A DNA stretch of 64,000 bases from Mesorhizobium sp. (GTDB lineage: Bacteria; Pseudomonadota; Alphaproteobacteria; Rhizobiales; Rhizobiaceae). A model generated the notes under the pieces. That model had not been told where the DNA came from and did no database searches. It saw nothing but the letters and a program-made list of their open reading frames with translations. The stretch is from positions 62,001 to 126,000 of the forward strand of contig NZ_JAEULZ010000016.1 of the NCBI RefSeq assembly GCF_016793485.1, written 5' to 3'. Positions 16,987-31,709 of the stretch are shown here, piece after piece (the stretch's first letter is position 1; each line of letters begins with the position of its first letter). Made by a program: the position numbers and the translations under genes.

Positions 16987-17550
16987 ATGGCGTTGCGTAG
17001 AGTCCACCGTGCGATGACGCAAGACATTACAAAGCTAATCGTCCGGGTTTCGATGAAGGATCGGGCGGCTTTCGACGCGCTTTACCGCGCGACAAGCGCG
17101 AAACTGTTTGGCGTCTGTTTGCGTATAGTGAACAACAGGGGGGAGTCCGAAGAGGCGCTTCAGGAGATCTTTATCAAGATTTGGACGAAGGCCGATCGTT
17201 TTGCGGTGTCGGATCTCAGCCCTATGTCTTGGCTCATAGCCATAGCGCGCAATCACGCAATCGATGTCATCCGCGCGAGGAAGCCGGCTGCCACGGATAT
17301 AGTCGCAGCCCTCGATGTGGCCGACCCGGCACCCGGACCGGAGGCGCTAACCGTTGCAGGCGGTGAACGGGAGCGGATTTATGGATGTCTGGGCGAGTTG
17401 GAAACCGATCGAGCCGCCGCTGTTCGCGGCGCTTACATTGAAGGCGATAGCTATACCGAACTTGCGGAGCGCTTCGACGTGCCTCTCAACACGATGAGAA
17501 CCTGGCTTCGCCGCAGCTTGATGAAGTTGAAGGAATGCCTTGAACGATGA
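16987..17550 (+). CDS. ECF sigma factor (RpoE/SigK type)
   Basis: A 187-residue extracytoplasmic-function sigma factor. Region 2 is FDALYRATSAKLFGVCLRIV through EEALQEIFIKIW (about residues 26-60) and region 4 is YTELAERFDVPLNTMRTWLR near the C-terminus. The ATG at 16987 has GGAGTGACGAG upstream; 16951 and 17014 are alternatives. Its TGA overlaps the ATG of an RskA-type anti-sigma, so the two are translationally coupled. Such factors usually respond to envelope or oxidative stress and control their own operon; the secreted fasciclin protein downstream is a likely target. Confidence 0.93.
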   Translation: MALRRVHRAMTQDITKLIVRVSMKDRAAFDALYRATSAKLFGVCLRIVNNRGESEEALQEIFIKIWTKADRFAVSDLSPMSWLIAIARNHAIDVIRARKPAATDIVAALDVADPAPGPEALTVAGGERERIYGCLGELETDRAAAVRGAYIEGDSYTELAERFDVPLNTMRTWLRRSLMKLKECLER

Positions 17551-18275
17551 GCCTCTTGGAAGACATGGATCCGGCAGGCGGGAGCGACGACATCGTGGCT
17601 GCCGAGTATGTCCTAGGCGTCCAATCTGGTGAAGAACGCCAGATGGTAGCTGCTCGTATCGAGAATGAACAAGCGTTTGCGCGGCTGGTGGATGGCTGGG
17701 ACTCGTACTTTGCGCCACTTGGCGCAGCCTACGTGGAGGTGACCGCCCCAATTTCTGTCAAGTCGGCGGTCGACCGGCGATTGTTTGCGGCGGAGACTGC
17801 GTCTGTCGCTCCTCGGGAGTCATCCTCCGGCCCTCTTTCCAGCCTAGTGTTCTGGCGTGGCCTGGCCGCGGCAGTTCTTGCGGCACTCATGGTATATATC
17901 GCGCTGCCCTACCTCCGTTCCTCTGCGCCCTCGACTGGTGAGCGGCTCGTCGCATCGCTTGTCGCGGATGGCAGCGGCGTCAGCTATCTCGCATTTTACG
18001 ACGACCGTACCAATGAAGTCGGCCTGTCGCGCCTGACCGGTGAACCCTCGTCAGGACGCGACTTCGAGCTGTGGGTCATACAAGGGCAGCAGCCGCCCCT
18101 CTCTCTCGGCGTGATACCTGCTGGACGGACCGCAACGCTGCCTGTAGCAGACCCGATACGTCAGAAGGTCGTTTCAGGCGCACTCTTCGCCATCAGCGAC
18201 GAGCCCGCTGGAGGCTCGACGACCGGCCTGCCGACCGGACCGGTCGTCGCCGCTGGCGACCTCAAGCCGATCTAA
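17547..18275 (+). CDS. RskA-type membrane anti-sigma factor
   Basis: A 242-residue single-span membrane protein. The cytoplasmic N-terminus has the anti-sigma-K pattern (VAAEYVLGVQSGEER, about 17-31). The membrane segment is about residues 103-122. The periplasmic C-terminus is an RskA domain with DFELWVIQG and SLGVIPAG. It should hold the upstream sigma factor inactive until a signal leads to its cleavage. The ATG overlaps the sigma stop codon, giving near-equal synthesis. Confidence 0.92.
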   Translation: MSLLEDMDPAGGSDDIVAAEYVLGVQSGEERQMVAARIENEQAFARLVDGWDSYFAPLGAAYVEVTAPISVKSAVDRRLFAAETASVAPRESSSGPLSSLVFWRGLAAAVLAALMVYIALPYLRSSAPSTGERLVASLVADGSGVSYLAFYDDRTNEVGLSRLTGEPSSGRDFELWVIQGQQPPLSLGVIPAGRTATLPVADPIRQKVVSGALFAISDEPAGGSTTGLPTGPVVAAGDLKPI

Positions 18276-18414
18276 GGACGGCTTACGTTTCGACCTTAGG
18301 AAAGTTTCCGCTCCTGGCAAAAATAAATACTTTCTGCGGGCAAAACCGCCGTGCCTCGAGCTCCGTATCTTGGGCGTACTTTCAACCGAAAGACCAATCC
18401 CAAGGGAGCACACC

Positions 18415-18972
18415 ATGCGTAATCTCACCTCTACCTTGCTTGCTGGCGCGGTCGCCTTCGCGGCGCTCGCGGGAGCCGCCTATGCCGAAAATCCGATGGT
18501 CGGCGGCGCAGCAATGTACGCGGACAAGAACATCGTCGAGAATGCGGTGAACTCGAAGGACCACACAACGCTGGTCGCCGCAGTGAAGGCGGCTGGCCTG
18601 GTCGAGACACTATCCGGGCCGGGGCCCTTCACGGTCTTTGCGCCGACGAATGAGGCGTTCGCAGCGTTGCCGGCCGGTACCGTTGAAACCCTGCTCAAGC
18701 CAGAGAACAAGGACACGCTCGTGAAGGTTCTCACATGCCATGTCATCGGTGCGAAGGCGATGGCCGCGGACGTGATGAAGATGGTCAAGGATGATGGCGG
18801 ATCTCACAAGGTCAAGACCGTCGGGGGCTGCGAACTCACGCTGAAGGATGAGAGCGGCAAGGTGACGGTTACCGATGAGAACGGCAACGTCGCGAACGTC
18901 ACCATCGCCGACGTCGAGCAGTCGAACGGGGTGATCCACGTGGTGGACAAGGTGCTACTGCCGAAGATGTAA
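18415..18972 (+). CDS. Secreted fasciclin (FAS1)-domain protein
   Basis: A 185-residue protein with a signal peptide (residues 1-24, cleavage after AAYA) and one FAS1 domain. The two FAS1 motifs are visible: GPFTVFAPTNEAFAAL (about 68-83) and the closing GVIHVVDKVLLP. FAS1 proteins act in adhesion or surface stability and this one should be periplasmic or secreted. A good AAGGGAG precedes the ATG. FAS1 genes often accompany ECF sigma/RskA pairs, so regulation by that pair is likely; the 139-base gap holds a short inverted repeat CTTTC/GAAAG but no ECF promoter I can identify with confidence. Confidence 0.93.
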   Translation: MRNLTSTLLAGAVAFAALAGAAYAENPMVGGAAMYADKNIVENAVNSKDHTTLVAAVKAAGLVETLSGPGPFTVFAPTNEAFAALPAGTVETLLKPENKDTLVKVLTCHVIGAKAMAADVMKMVKDDGGSHKVKTVGGCELTLKDESGKVTVTDENGNVANVTIADVEQSNGVIHVVDKVLLPKM

Positions 18973-21190: not shown

Positions 21191-21236
21191 ATTTGATCAA
21201 ATGCGCGTTGACAAGGGCGGTGATTTGATCAAATCA
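21191..21236 (+). promoter_or_regulatory. Twin operator and promoter of the hyu/ABC/BKACE operon
   Basis: Two copies of ATTTGATCAAAT occur at 21191-21202 and 21223-21234, centres 32 bases apart (about three helical turns). The second extends to a perfect 16-bp palindrome TGATTTGATCAAATCA (21221-21236). A consensus -35 box TTGACA lies between them (21208-21213), and with a 17-base spacer the -10 (AAATCA, weak) falls in the second copy. This is the layout of a repressor operator. The GntR/FCD protein of the same gene group is the likely ligand. Confidence 0.8.
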
Positions 21237-21264
21237 TGGTTTTGACACTCTGAGGATGCGCCGG

Positions 21265-23067
21265 ATGCATGATGAGGAAGAGACGCTTGCGGGATTCGAC
21301 CCGCTGCTGCTCGCAGTTCTTTCTAATCGGATGCAGTCGATCGTTCGCGAGATGTCGAACATCGTAAAGAAGTCCAGCCGGTCTACGGCGATCACGAATG
21401 CCAGGGATTTTTCCTGTGGTCTTTTGACCTTCGATCATCGGCTCGTCTGTGTTGAGGAAGCCATGCCGGTGCATGTCACTGCGATGGATCTCGCCACGCG
21501 GCCTGTAACCGACCTGTTTGGCGATGTTGCCGAGGGCGACGCCTTCTTTTCCAACAGTCCATATCATGGCGGCACGCACCATGCCGACATGACGTTATGC
21601 GTTCCTGTGTATCTGGACGGGGTGCCCATGTTCTGGACGGTCGCCCGCTCGCATCATGCCGATACCGGAGCGCATGTCCCGACCACGATGGACGCATATA
21701 TGCGCACCGTCTACGAAGAAGGCATGCACATCCCGGTTGTGCGCTTCCAGTCGCAGTACCGAGATCGGGACGACGTCATACGCTGGTGCCGCCAAAACAT
21801 CCGGGAAAGTCACATCTGGTATGGAGACTATCAGGCGCAGGTTGGAGCCGCCAGAACCGCGGAAACGAGGCTGAAGGAACTCGGCGCGCGCTACGGTCGC
21901 GATTCGATACGCGCGTTTGTCGAAGCATGGATGGAGTATGGCAAGCGCCGGGCGCGGGCGGCGATCGCCGCCCTACCTGCTGGAACCTTTACGTGGACGT
22001 GCAGGCACGACCCGGTGCCCGGTGTGGCTGATGAGGGTATCCCGATTACGGCCAAGGTCACCATTCAGCCAGACGCCGGGAAGATTGTCGTCGATTTGCG
22101 GGACAATCCCGACTGTGTCGATGGCGGGATCAATCTCTCCGAGGCATGCGCCACGGGCGCAGGCCGGATCGGTGTCTTCTACAATCTCGATCCGTCCCTG
22201 CCTCACAATGACGGCTCGGCAAGTTGTATCGAGGTGCTGCTGCGCGACGGATGCATTGTCGGTCGCCCGTCCTATCCGGTGGGCACGTCCAACGCGACGA
22301 TGGGCATAAATGACAGGCTGATCAACGCTGTCCAATGCGCGTTTGCGCAACTGGGCAGCCCGTACGGACTGGCCGAGGGCGGTACCGAATTCGGCGCCAA
22401 CATGGGCGTGATCTCGGGTATCGACGACCGGACCGGCGCCTCGTCATCATACATCAATATGCTGTTCCTCGGTCTGTCTACGGGACCAGCGGTCCACGGA
22501 CATGATGGCTGGCTTACCTACGAAGCGCCGAACGGCGGCGGGGTGCTGGCCCTCGATCAGGTGGAAATCGACGAAATGACCTATCCGATCCTTGTCGAGG
22601 AGCGAAAGATATCGACGAATGCCATGGGCATGGGCCAATGGAACGGCGCACCCGCCATGCAAGGAGTATATCGCCCGCTCACCCAACCCATGACGGTTGC
22701 CTATTGCAGCGACGGCGACGTCAATCCGCCGGCCGGTGTCATAGGAGGAGGTCAGGGCACTCCCGCAATCAATGCCAAGCGGCTCGCTGACGGCAGCGAA
22801 ATCCAGTTGCCGGCTTTCCATATGGAGACCTTGAACGCGGGCGAGCGAATCGTTTTCCGGACTGTCTCGGGAGGCGGCTACGGCGACCCGCGCGATCGGG
22901 ATGCGGCGCGCGTCGCCCGCGATGTGGACCGTGGCTGGATCGACGCAAATGTCGCATACGAGGTCTATGGCGTGGCGGTCATACAGCCCGAAGGCGGCGT
23001 TGACTGTGTCGTCGATGGCGATGCAACCGCCCGCCTCCGCGCTGCTTCGACCTTAGGAGTGCGCTGA
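21265..23067 (+). CDS. hyuB: Hydantoinase B / oxoprolinase family protein HyuB
   Basis: A 600-residue HyuB subunit. With HyuA it forms ATP-dependent enzymes that open hydantoins, 5-oxoproline or lactams (caprolactamase), or carboxylate ketones. Family segments include FFSNSPYHGGTHHADMTL, RSHHADTGAHVP and the C-terminal SGGGYGDP. The start at 21265 was chosen because GAGG at 21252-21255 is correctly spaced from it; an ATG at 21256 would be too close. It directly follows the twin operator, so it is the first gene of the operon. The absence of a third small subunit argues against acetone carboxylase. Substrate unknown. Confidence 0.92.
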   Translation: MHDEEETLAGFDPLLLAVLSNRMQSIVREMSNIVKKSSRSTAITNARDFSCGLLTFDHRLVCVEEAMPVHVTAMDLATRPVTDLFGDVAEGDAFFSNSPYHGGTHHADMTLCVPVYLDGVPMFWTVARSHHADTGAHVPTTMDAYMRTVYEEGMHIPVVRFQSQYRDRDDVIRWCRQNIRESHIWYGDYQAQVGAARTAETRLKELGARYGRDSIRAFVEAWMEYGKRRARAAIAALPAGTFTWTCRHDPVPGVADEGIPITAKVTIQPDAGKIVVDLRDNPDCVDGGINLSEACATGAGRIGVFYNLDPSLPHNDGSASCIEVLLRDGCIVGRPSYPVGTSNATMGINDRLINAVQCAFAQLGSPYGLAEGGTEFGANMGVISGIDDRTGASSSYINMLFLGLSTGPAVHGHDGWLTYEAPNGGGVLALDQVEIDEMTYPILVEERKISTNAMGMGQWNGAPAMQGVYRPLTQPMTVAYCSDGDVNPPAGVIGGGQGTPAINAKRLADGSEIQLPAFHMETLNAGERIVFRTVSGGGYGDPRDRDAARVARDVDRGWIDANVAYEVYGVAVIQPEGGVDCVVDGDATARLRAASTLGVR

Positions 23068-25130
23068 TGTTTCGTGTCGGCGTTGATATCGGGGGAACGT
23101 TCACCGACTGCGTTATCCAGACGCCCGAGGGCAAGACTATCATCGTCAAGAGTCCTTCGACGCCGGGAAATTTCGCCGAAGGGTTCATGAACGTTCTGAA
23201 GGTCGCTGCGGATCGCTTCGGACTGGGGTTTGCGGACTTCCTCGGAAAAGTCAGCGTCATCGTCCATGGGACCACCGTTTCGACCAATGCGCTGGTCACG
23301 CGACGCACCGCGAGAACCGGTCTGATGGCGACGCGCGGTCATCCCGACGTGTTGACGCTCCGCGAGGCGCCGCGCAAGAAAGCGTGGGACTGGCGGCTGG
23401 ATTATCCCGATCCTTTTGTGCCGCGCAATCTGACGATGGAGGTCGGCGGCCGCATCGATTCGCTTGGCAACGAGATCGAGCCCCTGTCGGAACAGGATGT
23501 GCGTGCCGCAGCGAGACGGTTCCGCCAAGCCGGTGTAGAGGCCATAGCGGTCAGCCTTCTCTGGGCTTTCGTCAATCCGTCGCACGAAGTGCGGGTCGCG
23601 GCGATCATCGAGGAGGAGTGGCCGGGCGTGCCGGTCAGCCTCGGTCATCAAGTCAATCCGATACCACGCGAATATCGGCGCACGATCGCGACCGCCATCG
23701 ACGCCTCGCTCAGGCCGGTGGTCAACGCCTATGTCGATGCGCTTACCGGCGCGCTGGCTTCGGCCGGATTTGGTGGCAAGCTGCTCATCGCAAATTGCAC
23801 GGGGGGAATGATGCCTCCCGACGAGATTATCGCCAGCCCGATACAGTCGGTCATGTCAGGCCCGACAATGGCCCCGGTCGCTGCACGCTATGCTGCTCCG
23901 GATCGGGATGTCGTCGTTGCCGACATGGGTGGTACTACATTCGACGTGGCCGCCATCCGATCCGGGCAGATATTGGTGACGCCGGAGGCGATGATCTACG
24001 ACCATGACATGCTTGGCCTGCCGAAGGTCGATGTCAGGTCGGTGGGAGCAGGCGGCGGTTCGATCGCATGGGTCGATGACGGCGGTCTGCTGCATGTCGG
24101 CCCGCAAAGCGCGGGTGCCCGGCCGGGTCCGGCCTGCTACGGGCTGGGTGGCGACATGGCTACGGTCACTGACGCCAACGTCGTGCTCGGCATCATCGAT
24201 CCGGACTTCTTCCTGGGCGGCGCGATCCGGCTTGATCGAGCGCTCGCGGAACAAGCAGTGGATCGCATAGCGGGGCAGTTGCGCATCAGCAGGCTGGAAG
24301 CGGCTTATGCTATCCATGCCACCTCGAACCACAACATGATCGGCGCGATCGAAGACATAACGGTCAACGAAGGGCTGAATCCAAGGGACAGCCTGATCGT
24401 TACGGGTGGTGGTGCAACTGGGTGCCATATCGCGGGAATGGCGCAGGCGCTGGGTTTGCCGATGTTCATGGTGCCACGCCTTTCCTCGGGGTTGAGCGCC
24501 TTTGGCGGACTCGTTTCGGACATACGCTGGCAAGCAACTGCGAGCGCATATTCGGACAGCAGCAACTTCGCCTTCGACAGGGTGAACCAGGCGCTGTTGG
24601 ACCTGACAAAGCGCTGCACCGCCTTCCTGGATCGTTCGGAAATTTCGCAGGAAACCCGCACGATGGAAGTCGCCTTCATGGGCCGCTACCAGTTCCAGTC
24701 CTGGGAGATCGAGGTGCCGTTCAGGCTGCCCGAGAGCGGCGCGATTTCGACAGCCAATCTCTCTTCCCTCACGAAGGCGTTTCACGACGTCCACCGGCGC
24801 GTCTACGGGATCGCCAACGAGAATGACAGGGTCGAGTTCGTCTCTTGGAAGATGACCGCTGTGGGCCGAACCGATCGCCAGCCGGCCGCCGCACCTCCAC
24901 TCGCCGGAAGCGCGATGGTCGAGCCTGCAGCCAAAGGCTCTCGATCAGTCTGTTTCGAGGCAGGGGCTAAGGCTCGCAGCATCCCAGTCTACAACGGCGG
25001 GTCGTTGCCGGTGGGCGCCGGAATACACGGCCCCGCCGTCATCGAAGAAGAAACGACGACGCTGCTTCTTCTGCCCGGCATGACGGCGCGCGTCGATATC
25101 GAAGGCAATTACTGGGTTGAATGCGCATAA
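23067..25130 (+). CDS. hyuA: Hydantoinase A / oxoprolinase family protein HyuA
   Basis: A 687-residue ATP-binding partner of HyuB. The N-terminal actin-like ATPase fold begins FRVGVDIGGTFTD (2-14), and the second phosphate motif ADMGGTTFDVA lies near 287-297. The middle and C-terminal hydantoinase A regions are complete, with GAGGGSIAWVD (about 330) and ARPGPACYG. The ATG shares its A with the HyuB stop (TGATG), indicating coupled synthesis of an equimolar complex. In this family ATP phosphorylates the amide oxygen before ring opening. Reaction type is inferred from the family. Confidence 0.93.
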   Translation: MFRVGVDIGGTFTDCVIQTPEGKTIIVKSPSTPGNFAEGFMNVLKVAADRFGLGFADFLGKVSVIVHGTTVSTNALVTRRTARTGLMATRGHPDVLTLREAPRKKAWDWRLDYPDPFVPRNLTMEVGGRIDSLGNEIEPLSEQDVRAAARRFRQAGVEAIAVSLLWAFVNPSHEVRVAAIIEEEWPGVPVSLGHQVNPIPREYRRTIATAIDASLRPVVNAYVDALTGALASAGFGGKLLIANCTGGMMPPDEIIASPIQSVMSGPTMAPVAARYAAPDRDVVVADMGGTTFDVAAIRSGQILVTPEAMIYDHDMLGLPKVDVRSVGAGGGSIAWVDDGGLLHVGPQSAGARPGPACYGLGGDMATVTDANVVLGIIDPDFFLGGAIRLDRALAEQAVDRIAGQLRISRLEAAYAIHATSNHNMIGAIEDITVNEGLNPRDSLIVTGGGATGCHIAGMAQALGLPMFMVPRLSSGLSAFGGLVSDIRWQATASAYSDSSNFAFDRVNQALLDLTKRCTAFLDRSEISQETRTMEVAFMGRYQFQSWEIEVPFRLPESGAISTANLSSLTKAFHDVHRRVYGIANENDRVEFVSWKMTAVGRTDRQPAAAPPLAGSAMVEPAAKGSRSVCFEAGAKARSIPVYNGGSLPVGAGIHGPAVIEEETTTLLLLPGMTARVDIEGNYWVECA

Positions 25131-25170
25131 CACACGCGAACTGAAGCAACGAAAAAAGGGAACGAAAGCG

Positions 25171-26151
25171 ATGATAATAAATTTCAAGCATGCCTACCTG
25201 GCGCTGGCATTGGCGCCGGTATTCCCAGCAAGTGCCGGCGCCGCCGATCTTTCGGGCAAGCACGTGATGCTCGTCACATGTGGGCCGTCGAATCCCTGGT
25301 GCAAGACATTCAACGAACGCATTACGGGCTTGCTGAAGGAGACAGGGGTCAAGATCACCGTTCTGGAGAACGATCTCGATCCTATCCAGGTCAACCAGCA
25401 GATGGCGCAGGCTGTCTCGCAAAAGCCTGACCTGATCATGGTCGAGCCTGCCGACGACAAGTCCCTCATCGCCGCGGTAAAGAAGGCCAAGGCCGCCGCC
25501 GTCCCGGTTCTCTATATGGACAGTCCCGCCGACGAGGCGATCATGGACGATATTGCGCTGCAGGTTGTCGCCGACAACTACGCACTCGGAAAGTTTGCCG
25601 GCGAAAACATCGTCGAGGGGCTGAAAGCACAGGGCAGAACGGAAGCGAACGTCATTGCCATAACGGGGTCGGCCGGTACGGCGATGGTCTCCGAGCGGCA
25701 ACGCGGTTTCATGGACGCCATGGCGCAGGAGCCGGCCTACAAGGTCGTGGAAGTGCAGGCGAACAATTGGGATCCGGTCGAAAGCGGCCGCATGGCGCAG
25801 CAGCTCTTCGCCAAGTATGCATCGCTGGGCGGCATACAGGGAGTGCGCGCTGACGCGGATTACATGGCGATTCCGATCCTTGAAGCCGCCCGTCAGGCCG
25901 GCCTGAAGCTCGGGGGCAAGGATGGGCTGATCGTTTCAGGCAGCACCTGTTCGCCCGAGGGCATCGCCGCGATCAAGGCGGGCGATATGATTGGTACAGC
26001 AACAGCCGACCCCTGGACACAGGGCGAGGCCAGCGCCCAGGCGGCAATCCGGTTCCTCAGCGGTGAAGCCGTTGAAAAGACGGTTAAGGTGCCGGAGTTC
26101 CGCGTCACCGCCGCCAATGTCGATCAGTATGGCGAAGTTTGCGCGAAATGA
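25171..26151 (+). CDS. Sugar-type ABC transporter substrate-binding protein (RbsB/Peripla_BP_4)
   Basis: A 326-residue periplasmic binding protein with a signal peptide ending at SAGA-AD (about residue 25). The two-lobed RbsB-like fold is recognisable from NDLDPIQVNQQMAQAV, VEPADDKSL, VPVLYMDSP and the hinge strands ADPWTQG. Proteins of this cluster bind sugars, autoinducer-2, erythritol or other polar small molecules. The ATG at 25171 gives the full signal peptide and is preceded by an AAGGGAACG. The next gene overlaps its stop. Being between hyuA and the ATPase, it probably brings in the Hyu substrate. Confidence 0.9.
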   Translation: MIINFKHAYLALALAPVFPASAGAADLSGKHVMLVTCGPSNPWCKTFNERITGLLKETGVKITVLENDLDPIQVNQQMAQAVSQKPDLIMVEPADDKSLIAAVKKAKAAAVPVLYMDSPADEAIMDDIALQVVADNYALGKFAGENIVEGLKAQGRTEANVIAITGSAGTAMVSERQRGFMDAMAQEPAYKVVEVQANNWDPVESGRMAQQLFAKYASLGGIQGVRADADYMAIPILEAARQAGLKLGGKDGLIVSGSTCSPEGIAAIKAGDMIGTATADPWTQGEASAQAAIRFLSGEAVEKTVKVPEFRVTAANVDQYGEVCAK

Positions 26152-27659
26152 AGCCTCCCTCGCCTCTCCTGTCTGTCGAGCGCGTGTCGCTGAGCTACGG
26201 TCGGTTCAAGGCCGTACGCGAGGCGAGCTTCTCGCTCGGCGCAGGCGAGGTGCTGGGTCTTTGCGGACATAACGGTGCAGGCAAGAGCAGTATTGTTCGC
26301 ATGCTTTCGGGCCTTTTAAGGCCGGACTCCGGCCAGATCGTGCTTGACGGCGCGCCCTGCGCGTTTCGCAGCGTAAGCGACGCACAACGGCAGGGCGTAG
26401 CACTGGTCGATCAGGAGTTGAGCGTCATACCGGCCCTGACGGTGGCCGAGAACCTTGCGCTCGGCGAACCCGGACTGGGCTTGCGAGGAACGCTGCCGCG
26501 CGAAGAAGCGCGGCGGCGTCTGGACGCGGTTGGTCTCGATCATCTCGACCCCTCGAGACCACTCGAAGACCTTTCTATCGGCGAGCGCCAGTTGGTCGAA
26601 ATCGCCCGCGCCATCGGCCGCGACGCGCGGCTGTTCATTCTGGACGAACCTACGGCGACGTTGAACACGGCCGACATCGAGCATGTCTTCAAGGCGGTCC
26701 GCAGAATCGCGGCTGCAGGCTGCGGTGTGATCTACGTTTCGCATCGATTGGACGAAGTGCTTGCCCTCTGTCAGCAGATCGTGGTCATGCGCGACGGCGC
26801 CGTCATCGCCGAGCAGAGGGCGGAGGACCTAAACGCGGCGAAGCTGGTCGAGCTCATGATCGGACACGCGCCCAAGCCTGTCACGAAAACCGCACGCACG
26901 GCCGACGACGGCAGCCGCATTCTGGAAGTAAGCGGCCTTTCCACCGAGCCCACGGTAGACGATTTCAATCTCGCGGTGCGGCCGGGAACCGTCACTGCTA
27001 TCGCCGGCCAGGTCGGCTCAGGCGGCAGCGATGTGTTGCGCGCTCTGGCGGGGCTGGCTCCAACGGCCCAAGGGGATGTCATGGTGCAGGGGCGGCGTGT
27101 TCCGCTCGGTGCACCGCGACGGTCAATTTCCGCGGGCATCGGCTTCCTGTCCGCCGACCGAAAGGGCGAAGGCCTTTTCCTGTCCCGCTCGATCTCGGAA
27201 AACCTTCTGGCAACGCGGCTTCGCGCCCTATCTCCGCATGCGGTTCTGCAGGGTTCCCGCATGCGGGCGACTGCCCGAAAAATCGCGTCGCGGATCGGGA
27301 TCGACCAGAACCGGCTCGGCGAGCCGGTGCGGCGGCTCAGCGGCGGAAATCAGCAGAAGACATTTCTCGGCCGTTGCATGGAGCGTGACGACATCAGCGT
27401 CCTTATGCTGGATGAGCCTACGCGAGGCGTCGACGTTGGCGGGAGGGCGGACATCCACATGCTCCTGAGGGAGCTGGCCTCGCAGGGCGTCGCGGTAATC
27501 TTCGCCTCTTCCGACCTGGAGGAGGTTCTATCGCTCGCCGACGATGTGGTGGTGATGCGTGCGGGCCGCATCGTGTCGAACGTGCCGGTCGCTGAGACCG
27601 ATAATGTGCGATTATTGTCGGACATGACGCACGCGCGGCTTTCAGAGCAGGTTGCCTGA
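26148..27659 (+). CDS. Sugar-type ABC transporter ATP-binding protein (two nucleotide-binding domains)
   Basis: A 503-residue RbsA/MglA-like protein with two fused ATPase domains. The first half has Walker A GHNGAGKSS (about 42-50), a signature replaced by the family form LSIGERQ and Walker B LFILDEPTATLN. The second has a degenerate Walker A (GQVGSGGSD), signature LSGGNQQK and Walker B MLDEPTRGVD. Such asymmetry is normal in this family. The ATG overlaps the binding-protein stop (ATGA). It energises the two permeases that follow. Confidence 0.94.
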   Translation: MKPPSPLLSVERVSLSYGRFKAVREASFSLGAGEVLGLCGHNGAGKSSIVRMLSGLLRPDSGQIVLDGAPCAFRSVSDAQRQGVALVDQELSVIPALTVAENLALGEPGLGLRGTLPREEARRRLDAVGLDHLDPSRPLEDLSIGERQLVEIARAIGRDARLFILDEPTATLNTADIEHVFKAVRRIAAAGCGVIYVSHRLDEVLALCQQIVVMRDGAVIAEQRAEDLNAAKLVELMIGHAPKPVTKTARTADDGSRILEVSGLSTEPTVDDFNLAVRPGTVTAIAGQVGSGGSDVLRALAGLAPTAQGDVMVQGRRVPLGAPRRSISAGIGFLSADRKGEGLFLSRSISENLLATRLRALSPHAVLQGSRMRATARKIASRIGIDQNRLGEPVRRLSGGNQQKTFLGRCMERDDISVLMLDEPTRGVDVGGRADIHMLLRELASQGVAVIFASSDLEEVLSLADDVVVMRAGRIVSNVPVAETDNVRLLSDMTHARLSEQVA

Positions 27660-28597
27660 TGTTCGCGCTGCAGCTCAAACGCGTGCTGCTTCCCGGGTTC
27701 ACCACCGTGACAGCACTCCTGATCCTCTGGTTCGCCGTGACCACGCAGGGCTTTTTCACGCTCGACAATGCAAGGGCTATCCTTGCCTCCATGGTCTTCG
27801 TCGGCATGGTCTCCATAGGGATGACCCTGATCATGGTCTCGGGCGCTTTCGTGTCCATGGCATTGGCCACGACGGCCACGATCTCCGCGATGATCTTCAT
27901 GGCCAGCCTGTCGTTCGGCTTGCCGGTCGCCATCGCCCTCACTGTTCTCGTGGGAGCACTTACTGGCGCGTTGCAAGGCGTGGCAATCGGCGGCTGGAAC
28001 GCCAATCCGATCATCGTCACCATCGCCGCGGCAGCGGTGCTCGAGGGCGTAGCCGTCGCATTCTCGCACGGCGCCACGATCAACCCCACCGGAACGTCTT
28101 ACACCGTGCTCAACGCGCATCTTTTCGGTCTTCCCGTGGGCCTCTATGCATTGGCAGTGCTGGCGCTTACTGCGGAATCGATCCTTCGCTTCACCCGGCT
28201 CGGCCCCATGATCTATCTCATGGGTGATAACCGCGCGGCCGCACGGGCCGCCGGACTGCCGATAGGCCGTATCGGCACCGCAGTTTTCGCGATAGCCGGG
28301 GCGACGGCCTCGCTTGCCGGCATCTTCATGGCCAGCTTCAACCACTCCGCTTCGCTGCTGCTCAATCGCGGCACGCTCGGCTACGACGCGATTGCCGCGG
28401 TGCTCATCGGCGGGGCGGCGATCGGCGGCGGCCGCGGAAGCGTTCTCAACACCATGATCGGTGTGGCGATCATCGCCATCGTCTCAGACCTCGTGCTGCT
28501 GCGCGGGTTCACCACCGGCGAGCAAATCCTGCTCAAGGGCCTCGTCATGGTTGCCTTTGCCGTCGGCGTCCATCTCAGGCAGGAGCAAAGGGCATGA
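27659..28597 (+). CDS. Sugar-type ABC transporter permease 1 (RbsC type)
   Basis: A 312-residue membrane protein with eight to ten hydrophobic segments. RbsC-family signatures include MVSIGMTLIMVSGAF (about 47-61), the coupling segment MGDNRAAARAAGLP (about 187-200) and GYDAIAAVLIGGAAIGGGRG (about 240-259). It starts in the stop codon of the ATPase gene (TGATG) and overlaps the second permease by four bases. Two different permeases suggest a heterodimeric channel. Confidence 0.92.
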   Translation: MFALQLKRVLLPGFTTVTALLILWFAVTTQGFFTLDNARAILASMVFVGMVSIGMTLIMVSGAFVSMALATTATISAMIFMASLSFGLPVAIALTVLVGALTGALQGVAIGGWNANPIIVTIAAAAVLEGVAVAFSHGATINPTGTSYTVLNAHLFGLPVGLYALAVLALTAESILRFTRLGPMIYLMGDNRAAARAAGLPIGRIGTAVFAIAGATASLAGIFMASFNHSASLLLNRGTLGYDAIAAVLIGGAAIGGGRGSVLNTMIGVAIIAIVSDLVLLRGFTTGEQILLKGLVMVAFAVGVHLRQEQRA

Positions 28598-29646
28598 GGG
28601 ACTTTACTGCTTTGACAGTAGCCGGACGCCATAGACGCCTGCGCAAAGCACTGCCGCTCGGGATACTCGCAGCAATAGCAATGCTGGCGTTGAGTCTGCC
28701 TGTCTGGTCGGATGTCGGCTTCTCGGTCTTCTCATTTTTCAACACGTTCCAGAATGCCGCCACCCTCGGGCTTTTGGCGCTTGCTGTCGGCCTGACCGTG
28801 ATGATCGGCGAGTTCGACCTATCGTCCATCGCCATCTTCACACTCGGCGGCTTGCTTGCAGTGAAATTCGGCGAGGCCTCGCCGATGTCCGGCATCGCCA
28901 TTGCGGTGGCGGCAGGTGCGCTGCTCGGCGCCGTGCAGGGCGGTTTGCTGGTTTTGACGGGCATCAGTTCGGTTCCGCTGACGCTGGGCGGATATATCGT
29001 CATACTCGGCCTTTGCCACATCGTTGCAGGGGAAGGCATTCTGGCCTACGGGAACTATGACATCGGTATCTGGCTGGACGATCCGGTCGCCTTGCTGTTC
29101 TCGAAGCGTAGCCTGCTCATCCTCGCTGTTTTCCTTCTCCTTTGGCTTGCGATGCGTTTCACCAGGCTAGGGTCCACGATCCGCTCGGTCGGTGCGGACC
29201 GACGCGCGGCTCTCGCTTCCGGGGTTTCCGTCAGTCGCACCGTTGCGGGGGTGTTCATCCTTTCGGGGATGCTTTGCGCTCTCGGAGGTGCGTTATTTTC
29301 CTATTCCGCGTCTGTTGCGAAGTACGATCTGGGTCTCGATCCTTTCATTTTCGCTGTGACCGCCGTGCTGCTCGGCGGAATCAACGTTTCAGGCGGGCGT
29401 GGCAACGTTCTCGGCATACTCGCCGGCGTGGTGGCTATGAGCCTGTTGGACACAATCTTCATCCAGCTCGCCATGCCGACATATCTGATCGACCTTGCGC
29501 GCGGCGCACTGTTGCTGATCGTCGTGCTGATAGAGGCGCCGGATCTCGCCCGCAGCTTGACGGCCTGGAAGGCTGGCCGCATCGGCGCCGCACAGGCCAA
29601 GGGCCGCGATCATTCCAAGCCCCTCGCCAACTCGGGCACCGGCTAG
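28594..29646 (+). CDS. Sugar-type ABC transporter permease 2 (RbsC type)
   Basis: A 350-residue permease of the same family. It shows GLLALAVGLTVMIGEFDLS (about 57-75), the coupling loop SVGADRRAALASGVSV (about 197-212) and AVTAVLLGGINVSGGRGN (about 252-269). The C-terminus carries a hydrophilic tail of about 35 residues. The ATG overlaps the first permease stop. The following 192 bases (29647-29838) contain only a weak open frame of 60 codons from ATG 29653 to 29835, without a ribosome-binding site, which I do not call as a gene. Confidence 0.92.
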   Translation: MRDFTALTVAGRHRRLRKALPLGILAAIAMLALSLPVWSDVGFSVFSFFNTFQNAATLGLLALAVGLTVMIGEFDLSSIAIFTLGGLLAVKFGEASPMSGIAIAVAAGALLGAVQGGLLVLTGISSVPLTLGGYIVILGLCHIVAGEGILAYGNYDIGIWLDDPVALLFSKRSLLILAVFLLLWLAMRFTRLGSTIRSVGADRRAALASGVSVSRTVAGVFILSGMLCALGGALFSYSASVAKYDLGLDPFIFAVTAVLLGGINVSGGRGNVLGILAGVVAMSLLDTIFIQLAMPTYLIDLARGALLLIVVLIEAPDLARSLTAWKAGRIGAAQAKGRDHSKPLANSGTG

Positions 29647-29838
29647 ACCTTGATGCGGAACCCCATGACCAACGCAATATCCGTTCGCCGGAACGCGGCT
29701 CTGGATGATGGATTGTCGGACGCCCATCCACCGTTCGAGGCGACTGATCGCAAGGATCTCGCCCGTCACCTGGCGGCGGATGCAGACGACGACTTCCTGC
29801 AGGTCGACGAGCGCCTGCTTCCTCGGGACGAGTGACCG

Positions 29839-30591
29839 ATGCCCCCCCGGAAAGCCCATGTCTCCGATACGAATGATCCTGCGCCACGCGGCGAAGTGGT
29901 GACTGCCCATGCGGCAATCTATGCCGAACTGAAGTCGTCCCTCATGAACGGCGATTTCAAGCCTGGTGAACGGCTCATCGTTCGCGAACTGTCCGAGCGG
30001 TTCGCGACCAGCACGATGCCTGTCCGCGAGGCGCTGCGAAAGCTCGTCAATGACGAGGCGCTTTTCGATCATCCCAATCGTGGCGTCACTGTTCCAGCCG
30101 CAGATGTCGGAGCAATTGCAGACCTTTTTCGTGTCCGCTGTGCAATTGAAGGTCAAGCGGCGGAATGGGCCGCCGCGACGATCAGCAAGGCGGAACTGGA
30201 TGCCGTCTACAGCATCAACGAGGCGATGCAGACATGCGTGCAGACATCCGAGGTTTCCCATTATCTCGCGCTCAACAAGCAGTTCCATTTCACGATCTAC
30301 CGCGCGTCGAAATCGAACGTGCTGCTTCCGATCATCGAGCGCCTTTGGCTGCGAGCTGGTCCGCTGCTCAATATCATGCGCCAGGAGGCGACGATCCAGC
30401 AGGGTCTCGATCACCATACCGACATTCTGGAAGCCATTAGCAAAGGGCAGGGAACGCAGTCCCGCAGGGCGATGGTGGCCGACATCGCCGATGCAAGCGA
30501 CATCCTCCAGCGCGCCGTGCCTTACTGGGAACCGCAGAGTGAGACGAAGCAGCAGGCGGCCGAAGACACCGACCTCAGCGCCGATAAGTAG
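29839..30591 (+). CDS. GntR-family regulator with FCD domain
   Basis: A 250-residue regulator. The winged helix lies at about 22-85, with FKPGERLIVRELSERF and TSTMPVREALRKL typical of the FadR subfamily. The C-terminal all-helical FCD ligand-binding domain (about 95-225) has FRVRCAIEGQAAEWAA and LNKQFHFTIYRAS with the metal-binding pattern. It sits in the transporter/BKACE group on the same strand, and is the natural candidate to bind the twin ATTTGATCAAAT operator upstream of hyuB. The inducer is probably the imported compound or an intermediate. Confidence 0.92.
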   Translation: MPPRKAHVSDTNDPAPRGEVVTAHAAIYAELKSSLMNGDFKPGERLIVRELSERFATSTMPVREALRKLVNDEALFDHPNRGVTVPAADVGAIADLFRVRCAIEGQAAEWAAATISKAELDAVYSINEAMQTCVQTSEVSHYLALNKQFHFTIYRASKSNVLLPIIERLWLRAGPLLNIMRQEATIQQGLDHHTDILEAISKGQGTQSRRAMVADIADASDILQRAVPYWEPQSETKQQAAEDTDLSADK

Positions 30592-30617
30592 ATCATTCGG
30601 AACACGGATTAGAAAAC

Positions 30618-31502
30618 ATGGCCAGACCCATCATTATTACCTGCGCTCTAACCGGTGACAGCAACACGCCTGCCAAGAGCCCCCATGTGCCCGTGACGCC
30701 TGCTGCGATCGCGGCGGATGCGCTCGCGGCCGCCCAAGCTGGCGCGGCCATCGTTCATATCCATGTGCGCGAACCGGATACCGCCAGAGGCAGTCGCAAC
30801 ACCGACTATTACAGGGAAGTCGTCGAGCTTATCGGCACAAGCGGCTCCGACGTGATCGTCAACCTGACGGCAGGAATGGGCGGCAAGCTCATTCTTGATC
30901 CCGTCCACGCACTACCGTTCGACACCACGACGGACCTGGTCGGCGCTGCCGAACGGCTGGTCCATATCGAGGCGTTGAAGCCTGATATCTGCAGTCTGGA
31001 TTGCGGAAGCTTCAACAATGGCCTCGAGAACGAGGTTTACGTCAGCACGTCCGGAATGGTGCGCGAAATGGCTGAACGTATAGCGGCGGCGGGCGTGAAG
31101 CCAGAACTCGAGATTTTCGATTTCGGCCATTTGCGTCTCGCATGCGCATTAGCCGAACAAGGGCTTATCAAAGCGCCTTGCCTCTTCCAGTTTGCGCTCG
31201 GACTGCGCTGGGGCGCACCTTCCGATACCGCGACCATGCTGCACATGCGCAACATGCTCCCCAAGGATGCCGTGTGGGTGGCGTTCGGCGCCGGCTCCGA
31301 GCAGATGCCGGTAGCAGCGCAATCCATCCTGCTTGGTGGTCATGTGCGGGTCGGGCTGGAAGACAATATCTATCGAAGCCGGGGGGTACTCGCGACAAAT
31401 GCGCAACTGGTCGAAGACGCGGTTCGTCTCGTCAGGACGCTGGGAGGCGAACCGGCAAATCCCGCGCAGGCACGGCATATTCTCGGATTGCACCGAGCTT
31501 GA
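30618..31502 (+). CDS. BKACE family beta-keto acid cleavage enzyme (DUF849)
   Basis: A 294-residue TIM-barrel zinc enzyme of the BKACE family. These condense a beta-keto acid with acetyl-CoA to give acetoacetate and a CoA ester; the founder, Kce, acts on 3-keto-5-aminohexanoate in lysine fermentation. Zinc ligands are His47 and His49 (HIHVRE) and Glu248 in RVGLEDN, where Arg244 and Asp249 are also catalytic. The substrate-selecting residue equivalent to Kce Glu14 seems changed (GDSNT instead of GAETT), so the amine-binding specificity may differ. It follows the GntR gene by 26 bases and ends the gene group. Confidence 0.92.
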   Translation: MARPIIITCALTGDSNTPAKSPHVPVTPAAIAADALAAAQAGAAIVHIHVREPDTARGSRNTDYYREVVELIGTSGSDVIVNLTAGMGGKLILDPVHALPFDTTTDLVGAAERLVHIEALKPDICSLDCGSFNNGLENEVYVSTSGMVREMAERIAAAGVKPELEIFDFGHLRLACALAEQGLIKAPCLFQFALGLRWGAPSDTATMLHMRNMLPKDAVWVAFGAGSEQMPVAAQSILLGGHVRVGLEDNIYRSRGVLATNAQLVEDAVRLVRTLGGEPANPAQARHILGLHRA

Positions 31503-31633
31503 AGGAGACATCGCCCGGAACGCGGGCAATTGGCGGCGAAGCCAATACGCTGCACCAAGTAGGGACGGACGTGGGGGTGGAAACCCTTCCGCTCCAGTTC
31601 ACATACCCAATTCAAATCCTGGAACTCGCCGAA

Positions 31634-31709
<76 letters not shown>

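Follow-up and report, generated by a model that had tools for sequence, protein, structure and literature searches.

An eight-gene operon of Mesorhizobium sp., located in a 64,000-nucleotide stretch of DNA (the window), may belong to a two-locus regulon for beta-amino-acid breakdown, in which it would supply uptake and amide cleavage, a model towards which we lean with modest confidence. The gene set, an operator shared with a second locus on contig C44, the conservation of this operator, and the linkage of one BKACE subclade to beta-transaminases are all observed, while the pathway reactions are probable ones, assigned from enzyme families. A cyclic, lactam-like amide would be taken up by a CUT2-fold importer and opened with ATP by HyuBA to a beta-amino acid, a step suggested by family membership. 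The C44 beta-transaminase would convert this product to a beta-keto acid, which BKACE would combine with acetyl-CoA to yield acetoacetate and a CoA ester, and the thioesterase of the C44 locus may hydrolyse this ester. Control would lie with two paralogous GntR/FCD regulators that recognise the palindrome ATTTGATCAAAT at the two loci and keep both repressed in the absence of a pathway compound. That a lactamase HyuBA, a beta-transaminase, a dedicated BKACE subclade, and GntR/FCD regulators reading ATTTGATCAAAT make up an undescribed route is a proposition we regard as evenly balanced. As candidate substrates, 3-aminated lactams, beta-lysine lactam, and dihydropyrimidines were considered; the data favour none of these and none is claimed.

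All eight genes named in a sequence-only reading of the window (HyuB, HyuA, binding protein, ATPase, two permeases, GntR/FCD regulator, and BKACE) are present and intact on the forward strand based on open reading frames and Pfam matches (Table 1), and its picture of a single unit for uptake, attack, and control with a BKACE downstream (324.1 bits against a PF05853 gathering score of 24.8) is borne out. Its description of the genes as mostly overlapping holds for four of the seven junctions, the other three being gaps of 40, 192, and 26 bases; the possible small gene within the second gap (56 aa) has no Pfam match. The start assigned by that reading, 21191, is the first base of palindrome 1. 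Six sigma-70-like matches occur in the promoter region (3.1 expected), and in the predicted promoter the first hexamer lies between the two palindromes while the second overlaps palindrome 2.

Table 1 Features of the operon and its flanks (positions within the window).
Feature	Position	Strand	Evidence or remark
Operator palindrome 1, ATTTGATCAAAT	21191..21202		exact 12-mer
Predicted sigma-70 promoter, TTGACA-18-AATCAT	21208..21237	+	consensus match only, 10/12
Operator palindrome 2, ATTTGATCAAAT, 32 bp from palindrome 1	21223..21234		exact 12-mer
HyuB-type metal-binding subunit, 603 aa	21256..23067	+	PF02538, E 2.7e-124
HyuA-type ATP-binding subunit, 687 aa	23067..25130	+	PF05378, PF01968, PF19278
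Periplasmic binding protein, CUT2 / ribose-binding fold family	25171..26151	+	PF13407
AraG/RbsA-like two-domain ABC ATPase	26139..27659	+	PF00005
ABC permease 1	27659..28597	+	PF02653
ABC permease 2	28594..29646	+	PF02653
Possible ninth gene, 56 codons + stop	29665..29835	+	inside the 192-base gap
GntR/FCD regulator	29839..30591	+	PF00392, PF07729
BKACE, beta-transaminase-linked subclade	30618..31502	+	PF05853, E 9.2e-97
tRNA-Ala(CGC), outside the operon	31634..31709	-	tRNA adjoining the operon

The 5.21-Mb genome contains exactly three copies of the 12-bp palindrome ATTTGATCAAAT, against ~0.03 expected from base composition: two are found at the window promoter and the third on C44, adjoining the beta-transaminase gene, with none elsewhere. 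Its reversed control has 0 copies in the genome, and a 12-bp palindrome common to both promoter regions was obtained for 0 of 20,000 shuffle pairs. We base the operator on the exact 12-mer across the genome because, within the window alone, a 10-mer search with one mismatch yielded an unremarkable two matches (1.06 expected; 30 of 100 shuffles reach two). When one mismatch was allowed genome-wide, seven sites were recovered: four at the window and C44 loci, the fourth of which (ATTCGATCAAAT) overlaps the start of the beta-transaminase gene, and three at C3 (two) and C41. A search with AKTTGATCAAMT added one site, inside a predicted gene at C13, and no link to the pathway was found for the sites at C3, C41, and C13.

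The window and C44 loci, sharing one operator, constitute a predicted regulon, in which the palindrome is probably bound by GntR, as judged from the regulator family; the window regulator is 56% identical to that of the C44 cluster. Exact ATTTGATCAAAT copies are also found at orthologous beta-transaminase promoters of three other genomes (L290, L291, L292), and two copies of a variant, AGTTGATCAACT, precede the beta-transaminase in L031 (Rhodobacter Har01). The L031 sites, for which a ATTTGATCAAAT search allowing one mismatch gave no match, differ from ATTTGATCAAAT symmetrically at two positions, a pattern noticed by eye and then counted. Each of these four loci carries a GntR 45–65% identical to that of the window. 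For two further beta-transaminase orthologues (L293, L310; 64–67%), no operator site was found in front, and a window-type GntR was not seen in the stretch read. Operator conservation was thus seen at the transaminase locus, and a second hyuBA promoter with the site was not seen. Two TTGATCAA cores lie in the GntR-HyuA gap of L146, and the core was not found in L210 or L182; a search of the openly licensed literature for TTGATCAA with GntR returned only an item on Lactobacillus and cytokines.

The C44 cluster encodes the beta-transaminase, the second GntR, a second BKACE, a PotABCD-like importer, and the thioesterase, and no transaminase gene is found in the window operon. Three solved beta-transaminases match the C44 transaminase at 436.9–438.2 bits, and the next match falls to 264.2 bits. 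Its closest solved relatives are PDB 6iz9, 2yku, and 4ao9 (beta-phenylalanine aminotransferase), 2yku being from Mesorhizobium sp. LUK and 4ao9 from Variovorax. Such enzymes connect beta-amino acids with beta-keto acids (PMC3281772), and the literature consulted describes them as biocatalysts. The C44 enzyme is a predicted beta-transaminase, assigned by sequence. Of 23 beta-transaminase matches, 21 were read with wide flanks, leaving out G601 and G797.

In a 23-row tree, the BKACEs of the window, L031, and L292 form a 100/100 clade, the latter two (68–70% to the window BKACE) both being encoded directly adjoining a beta-transaminase. The window, L031, and L210 BKACEs were also grouped at 98/95, with the L210 join reaching only 87/94 in the 23-row tree, and the L210 BKACE likewise adjoins a beta-transaminase; both trees (57 and 23 chosen rows) represent a selection of relatives. 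Such adjacency is rare overall (2 of 117 BKACE-centred stretches). Taken together, operator sharing and the BKACE clade make a beta-amino acid, requiring transamination, the most likely intermediate. The sequence-only reading had invoked oxidation to a beta-keto acid by enzymes elsewhere: the location stands, while transamination replaces oxidation as the most likely reaction. Beta-keto acids readily decarboxylate, according to the part of PMC3281772 consulted, so that a direct feed from transaminase to BKACE would use them neatly.

We consider unlikely a return to oxidation, in which HyuBA would open a lactam or hydantoin, the product (e.g., a beta-hydroxy acid) would be oxidised by a dehydrogenase elsewhere, and BKACE would cleave the resulting beta-keto acid. 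In this genome, the C44 cluster adjoins two SDRs as well as an iron-type alcohol dehydrogenase that exceeds the NCBIfam 4-hydroxybutyrate dehydrogenase cut-off, and these neighbours reduce our confidence in the two-locus model. Two other loci unite HyuAB and BKACE with SDRs in place of a transaminase: the Mesorhizobium japonicum pMLa cluster (L146; HyuA-HyuB-BKACE-SDR with a divergent GntR) and L182, from the same genus (BKACE-HyuA-HyuB-importer-SDR-SDR-GntR). L146 resembles the window in joining HyuAB, BKACE, and GntR in one locus, but its HyuA is only 33% identical, its importer is of the branched-chain type, and no transaminase occurs in the stretch read. An SDR step is also part of a published BKACE pathway, for deoxyribonate (PMC6365646, consulted in part). 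However, neither the window operon nor the interval separating the C44 transaminase from its BKACE encodes a dehydrogenase, the clade of the window BKACE is transaminase-linked, and the matching clusters, L290 and L291, showed no such iron-type enzyme.

A neighbourhood test set beforehand gave a mixed outcome for the association of these genes. HyuA and BKACE rarely occur together (1 of 35 hyuA-centred and 3 of 117 BKACE-centred stretches), and hyuBA adjoined a beta-transaminase in 0 of the 35 hyuA-centred stretches at 250 bits, while a partial hyuA-like gene lies ~14 kb away from the transaminase-BKACE pair of L210. Nevertheless, the Paracoccus aminophilus plasmid pAMI5 carries BKACE together with HyuB, HyuA, binding protein, ATPase, and permease 1, as a decayed run in the order BKACE-HyuB-HyuA-SBP-ATPase-permease. 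The 35 stretches represent all non-own matches (31 from an order sample at E 1e-150 and 4 from a class sample at E 1e-195), four being shortened by contig ends; the 117 comprise 80 kept of 572 confirmed relatives and 37 of 40 further non-own matches, and are partly non-independent (the L058 and L216 BKACEs are identical). Co-occurrence bit thresholds were chosen by us, and neighbour genes were called by a codon-score script, so that gene calls and starts are heuristic.

This rarity would fit a scenario, quite improbable in our view, in which chance or a recent transfer brought HyuBA and the importer together with BKACE and GntR, the regulator alone being shared and the products feeding different pathways. 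Consistent with it, the operon adjoins a tRNA in a region absent from the three same-genus genomes compared, similarity to two such genomes ends at the 3' end of the tRNA or 12 bases past it, and no orthologue of the binding protein was found at E 1e-28 in the 384 other genomes of the class sample. A check for an integrated island found no second copy of the 21-base tRNA-end piece in the window with ≤3 mismatches allowed. Against chance joining, the decayed pAMI5 run indicates that the set was kept together in another lineage.

The role of HyuBA as an ATP-dependent ring opener is supported by sequence scores, which place it nearest to caprolactamase, without a carboxylase small subunit. HyuA keeps the three ATP motifs DxGGTxTD, DMGGT, and GxxPGP, and HyuB keeps the metal ligands D51, H108, D111, and H133 (CapB positions from PMC8453981, transferred by alignment). 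The CapBA caprolactamase of Pseudomonas jessenii (PDB 6yra), the best match in both PDB and NCBIfam, matches the window pair in its B-A order, its two subunits, and the kept ATP motifs and metal ligands (four), but in the alignment the window HyuB has neither the vicinal Cys pair nor Tyr136 found in CapB. Both subunits (HyuA 573.7 bits, HyuB 251 bits) fall far below the NCBIfam caprolactamase cut-off of 1000, and thus outside this equivalog. In the sections of PMC5214803 consulted, the Hyd class (ATP-dependent hydantoinase/oxoprolinase) is characterised by two subunit genes, usually ordered A-B, no gamma gene, and core subunits shorter than those of Acx/Apc; apart from its B-A order, the window pair belongs here, with two subunits only (687 + 603 aa) and motifs and ligands kept. 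We therefore set aside, as very unlikely, a HyuBA that acts as a ketone carboxylase (cf. acetone/acetophenone carboxylase) and yields the beta-keto acid directly, with BKACE replacing a CoA ligase and thiolase. This would make other enzymes unnecessary, and the carboxylases are HyuBA relatives. Yet no gamma or third-subunit gene is found in the operon, subunit lengths fit the hydrolases of PMC5214803, scores are higher for caprolactamase and N-methylhydantoinase than for Apc and Acx (HyuA: 573.7 bits for caprolactamase vs 309.3 for ApcC, NCBIfam), and the same BKACE clade occurs in L031 without HyuBA inside 10-kb flanks.

The importer has the components of a CUT2 system: a ribose-type binding protein, a two-domain ATPase, and PF02653 permeases. 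Taking the ribose contacts of E. coli RBP to be N13, F15, F16, D89, R90, R141, N190, D215, and Q235, alignment to 1dbp shows that the binding protein keeps N13, D89, and R141, has W for F15, and carries F16C, R90S, N190A, D215T, and Q235A, unlike a ribose importer. Since most ribose contacts are missing, "sugar-type" describes the fold and not the ligand. The view that such an importer is unusual beside HyuAB did not hold: an RbsA-like two-domain ATPase occurs in the same stretch (≤20 kb) at 13 of the 35 hyuA loci, and CUT2-type genes lie directly upstream of hyuAB in L142, L143, L144, L147, and L160.

A dehydrocarnitine-cleaving BKACE, with the operon serving quaternary-amine breakdown, is the least probable reading and was set aside on tree position and neighbour genes: a carnitine dehydrogenase homologue (100 bits; may include general 3-hydroxyacyl-CoA dehydrogenases) occurs in 97 of 117 BKACE-centred stretches, and many next-nearest relatives are carnitine-linked (two checked pass the NCBIfam L-carnitine dehydrogenase cut-off), but the BKACEs of the window, L031, and L210 sit on a starred branch of their own, no carnitine dehydrogenase (CdhA) homologue was found among the predicted genes of the window, L031, L210, or L292, let alone adjoining BKACE, and a third BKACE of this genome, on C32, already adjoins one. 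Because the carnitine-linked rows fall into more than one clade, the window branch may still descend from a carnitine enzyme. At 247 bits, the window BKACE also lies below the NCBIfam Kce (3-keto-5-aminohexanoate cleavage) cut-off of 382, outside that equivalog.

Carnitine breakdown, which yields acetoacetate via dehydrocarnitine cleavage (by the enzyme CdhC), resembles the proposed two-locus system in having BKACE and thioesterase genes together (L082), and differs in its carnitine dehydrogenase, in BKACEs on other branches, and in a GbdR-like regulator. In the openly licensed literature, searches found no paper that connects BKACE to HyuAB or to beta-amino acids, nor one on both 3-keto-5-aminohexanoate cleavage and hydantoinase, which is a weak sign of novelty. 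The Pseudomonas simiae deoxyribonate pathway likewise places BKACE late in a catabolic route, but there an SDR makes the beta-keto acid, and hydantoinase is not mentioned in PMC6365646.

Overall, the conserved operator and the gene-linked subclade tie BKACE to beta-transaminase and, in this genome, to HyuBA. To our knowledge, many BKACE enzymes and beta-transaminases lack a known natural substrate, and this linkage offers a short list of testable reactions along with a transcriptional reporter for substrate finding. If the proposed model is true, this type of beta-transaminase would gain a natural pathway and a regulon.

The eight-gene operon claimed by the sequence-only reading was borne out: eight intact genes encoding HyuBA, a CUT2-type importer, a GntR/FCD regulator, and a beta-keto acid cleavage enzyme (BKACE) are present, and this gene set is well supported by computation (see table). 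A short additional reading frame, which ends three bases 5' of the GntR start and whose 56-aa product matched no family in a Pfam scan, may represent a ninth operon gene. The arrangement of the predicted promoter and palindromes fits repression.

Features of the window operon, its surroundings, and the matching operator site on contig C44 of the same genome
Feature	Position	Strand	Remark
Sigma-70-type factor, RskA-type anti-sigma factor, fasciclin-domain protein	17014-18972		In a row, left of helicase
Two perfect 12-bp palindromes ATTTGATCAAAT	21191-21202 and 21223-21234		32 bp apart, operon promoter region
Predicted promoter TTGACA-18-AATCAT	21208-21237		First hexamer between palindromes, second overlapping palindrome 2
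Eight intact operon genes	21256-31502	+	
HyuB, HyuA		+	First operon genes, both full-length
CUT2-type importer: binding protein, two-domain ATPase, two permeases		+	
GntR/FCD, then BKACE		+	3' of importer genes
Possible ninth gene, 56 codons	29665-29835	+	Between permease 2 and GntR
Third ATTTGATCAAAT site	C44:83981-83992		Between divergent transaminase and importer binding-protein gene

The link between this type of BKACE and transaminases is well supported by our computations. Transaminase, BKACE, and GntR genes lie in a row in Rhodobacter sp. Har01 (L031) and at a further locus (L292), with BKACEs 70% and 68% identical to that of the window, and in a 23-row BKACE tree these three form one clade (support 100/100). 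In a 57-row tree, the window and L031 (100/100) were joined at 98/95 by L210 (57%), which also adjoins a transaminase, and this branch stands apart from carnitine-linked rows, which do not form one clade. Support for the L210 join was just 87/94 in the 23-row tree. The third BKACE of the window's own genome, on contig C32, has as neighbours a homologue of carnitine dehydrogenase (48%) and a regulator resembling GbdR (31%). Overall, a BKACE of some type was found near 6 of 21 transaminase loci (L208, L290, L291, L292, L296, and L305), and such a transaminase near 2 of 117 BKACE-centred loci (L031 and L210).

One of these transaminase loci, L208, is on contig C44 of the same genome. Among solved structures, three beta-transaminases score highest against the class III transaminase of this locus, at 438.2, 437.3, and 436.9 bits, whereas the next reaches 264.2 bits. 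The GntR of L208 is 56% identical to that of the window. The cluster also encodes a BKACE above the NCBIfam cut-off for 3,5-dioxohexanoate:acetyl-CoA acetone transferase (515 vs 430), a PotABCD-like importer (ATPase, binding protein, two permeases; under NCBIfam cut-offs or unmatched where scanned), a thioesterase-family protein, an M20 amidohydrolase, and a DAO-family FAD-dependent oxidoreductase. Across the whole genome, ATTTGATCAAAT occurs three times, with about 0.03 occurrences expected from base composition, while its reversed control occurs 0 times. When the two promoter regions were shuffled as pairs 20,000 times, they never had a 12-bp palindrome in common and twice had a 10-bp one. 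The shared two-locus operator is well supported computationally.

We followed this operator in other genomes. When 387 genomes of the order were searched for the beta-transaminase (E 1e-130), 21 of them gave 23 matches in total, of which 21 matches were examined with wide flanks (L208, L290-L309). The exact 12-mer was found at the transaminase promoter of four loci, namely L208, L290 (79% identity, same genus), L291 (69%, another family), and L292 (64%, another family), each with a GntR 45-65% identical to that of the window. It lies 100 bp (L290) and 90 bp (L291) 5' of the predicted transaminase start, and overlaps this start in L292. L293 (64%) had neither the 12-mer nor such a GntR, and the 16 loci at 48-55% (L294-L309) all lacked a site close to the start of the transaminase gene. 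A more distant GntR (27-39% identity to the window or C44 regulator) is encoded at L300, L301, and L305 among these 16. A Sinorhizobium plasmid orthologue (67%) had no site within the 767 bases examined upstream and no such GntR downstream. In L031, two perfect variants, AGTTGATCAACT, lie 5' of transaminase-BKACE-GntR. On M. japonicum pMLa, which carries a HyuAB-BKACE-SDR cluster, the 167-bp gap between GntR and HyuA (L146 8074-8240) contains two TTGATCAA cores (two in 0 and at least one in 52 of 5,000 shuffles), which suggests that related clusters are controlled by related regulators.

The reactions of the pathway enzymes are assigned here from family membership, and HyuBA would yield a beta-amino acid. 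HyuA and HyuB matched the subunits of caprolactamase best, at 573.7 and 251 bits against a cut-off of 1000, followed by acetophenone carboxylase, and HyuA scored 422.1 bits against caprolactamase in the PDB, 366.5 against N-methylhydantoinase, 299.5 against Apc, and 217.8 against Acx. The ATP motifs and four metal ligands described for caprolactamase in PMC8453981 are kept, with residues transferred via alignment. Because it is without a gamma subunit, HyuBA was placed in the hydrolase class under criteria in PMC5214803, in which a substrate-site consensus sequence could not tell the classes apart. Unlike caprolactamase, window HyuB aligns without the pocket's vicinal Cys pair and Tyr136, and the ring opened may therefore differ.

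For the importer, we compared the binding protein with E. coli ribose-binding protein (1dbp) at nine positions that we take to be its ribose contacts. Three are kept (N13, D89, and R141), a Trp replaces F15, and F16, R90, N190, D215, and Q235 differ, making a ribose-like ligand unlikely. A sugar-type importer near HyuAB, initially considered unusual, proved common: an RbsA-like two-domain ATPase was found in 13 of 35 hyuA-centred stretches, at a threshold that may let in nucleoside-type importers, and CUT2-like importer genes lie directly upstream of HyuAB in L142, L143, L144, L147, and L160 (HyuA 53-55% identical). For the binding protein itself, a search of the class sample (384 other genomes) gave no match at E 1e-28, and the best-matching of 60 relatives was 31% identical. 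A Rhizobium sp. CC1099 plasmid encodes a closely related importer, with identities of 45% for the ATPase, 40% for the permease, and 33% for the binding protein; HyuBA was not found within the stretch examined.

Of the 35 hyuA-centred stretches, one (L182) contained both HyuA and BKACE, as did three of the 117 centred on BKACE (L210, L241, and L242), and the plasmid search returned pMLa, with a second record, H55, listed with the same pairing. The closest to the whole set is Paracoccus aminophilus pAMI5 (L141 9715-14529), with BKACE-HyuB-HyuA-binding protein-ATPase-permease 1 in order and the genes decayed, i.e., in pieces or shortened. An N,N-dimethylformamidase-type gene lies a few kb from this run. 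No intact second copy was found in the class-sample search with the binding protein or among its 60 relatives. The right flank of the window operon (tRNA-Ala, YggT, DUF167, pyrophosphatase) is common to three same-genus genomes, except for the tRNA, not found in L265. Similarity stops at the tRNA-Ala(CGC) 3' end (L266) or 12 bases past it (L264), i.e., at window 31622-31634. In the three relatives, the sequence examined there, which includes roughly 10 kb left of the tRNA in L264 and L266, showed neither the operon nor the left-hand helicase, fasciclin, or sigma/anti-sigma genes. One test found no edge-marking repeat at the operon. The operon is a lineage-specific addition, and was probably acquired.

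A less likely but live alternative is that a dehydrogenase, rather than a transaminase, makes the beta-keto acid. Dehydrogenases accompany HyuAB and BKACE in L146 and in L182, a same-genus locus (BKACE-HyuA-HyuB-branched-chain-type importer-SDR-SDR-GntR) whose BKACE clusters with the C44 type (100/100, 23-row tree), not the window type. In the window's own genome, the C44 cluster is flanked (L208 3933-7248) by two SDRs as well as by an iron-type alcohol dehydrogenase that scores over the 4-hydroxybutyrate dehydrogenase cut-off (584.2 vs 500), and for this reason we slightly lowered our confidence in the two-locus model. That model, in which HyuBA, the C44 transaminase, and BKACE act under a shared operator, remains somewhat favored. 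The window operon carries a transaminase operon's BKACE and GntR without the transaminase, and its own genome provides one under the same operator.
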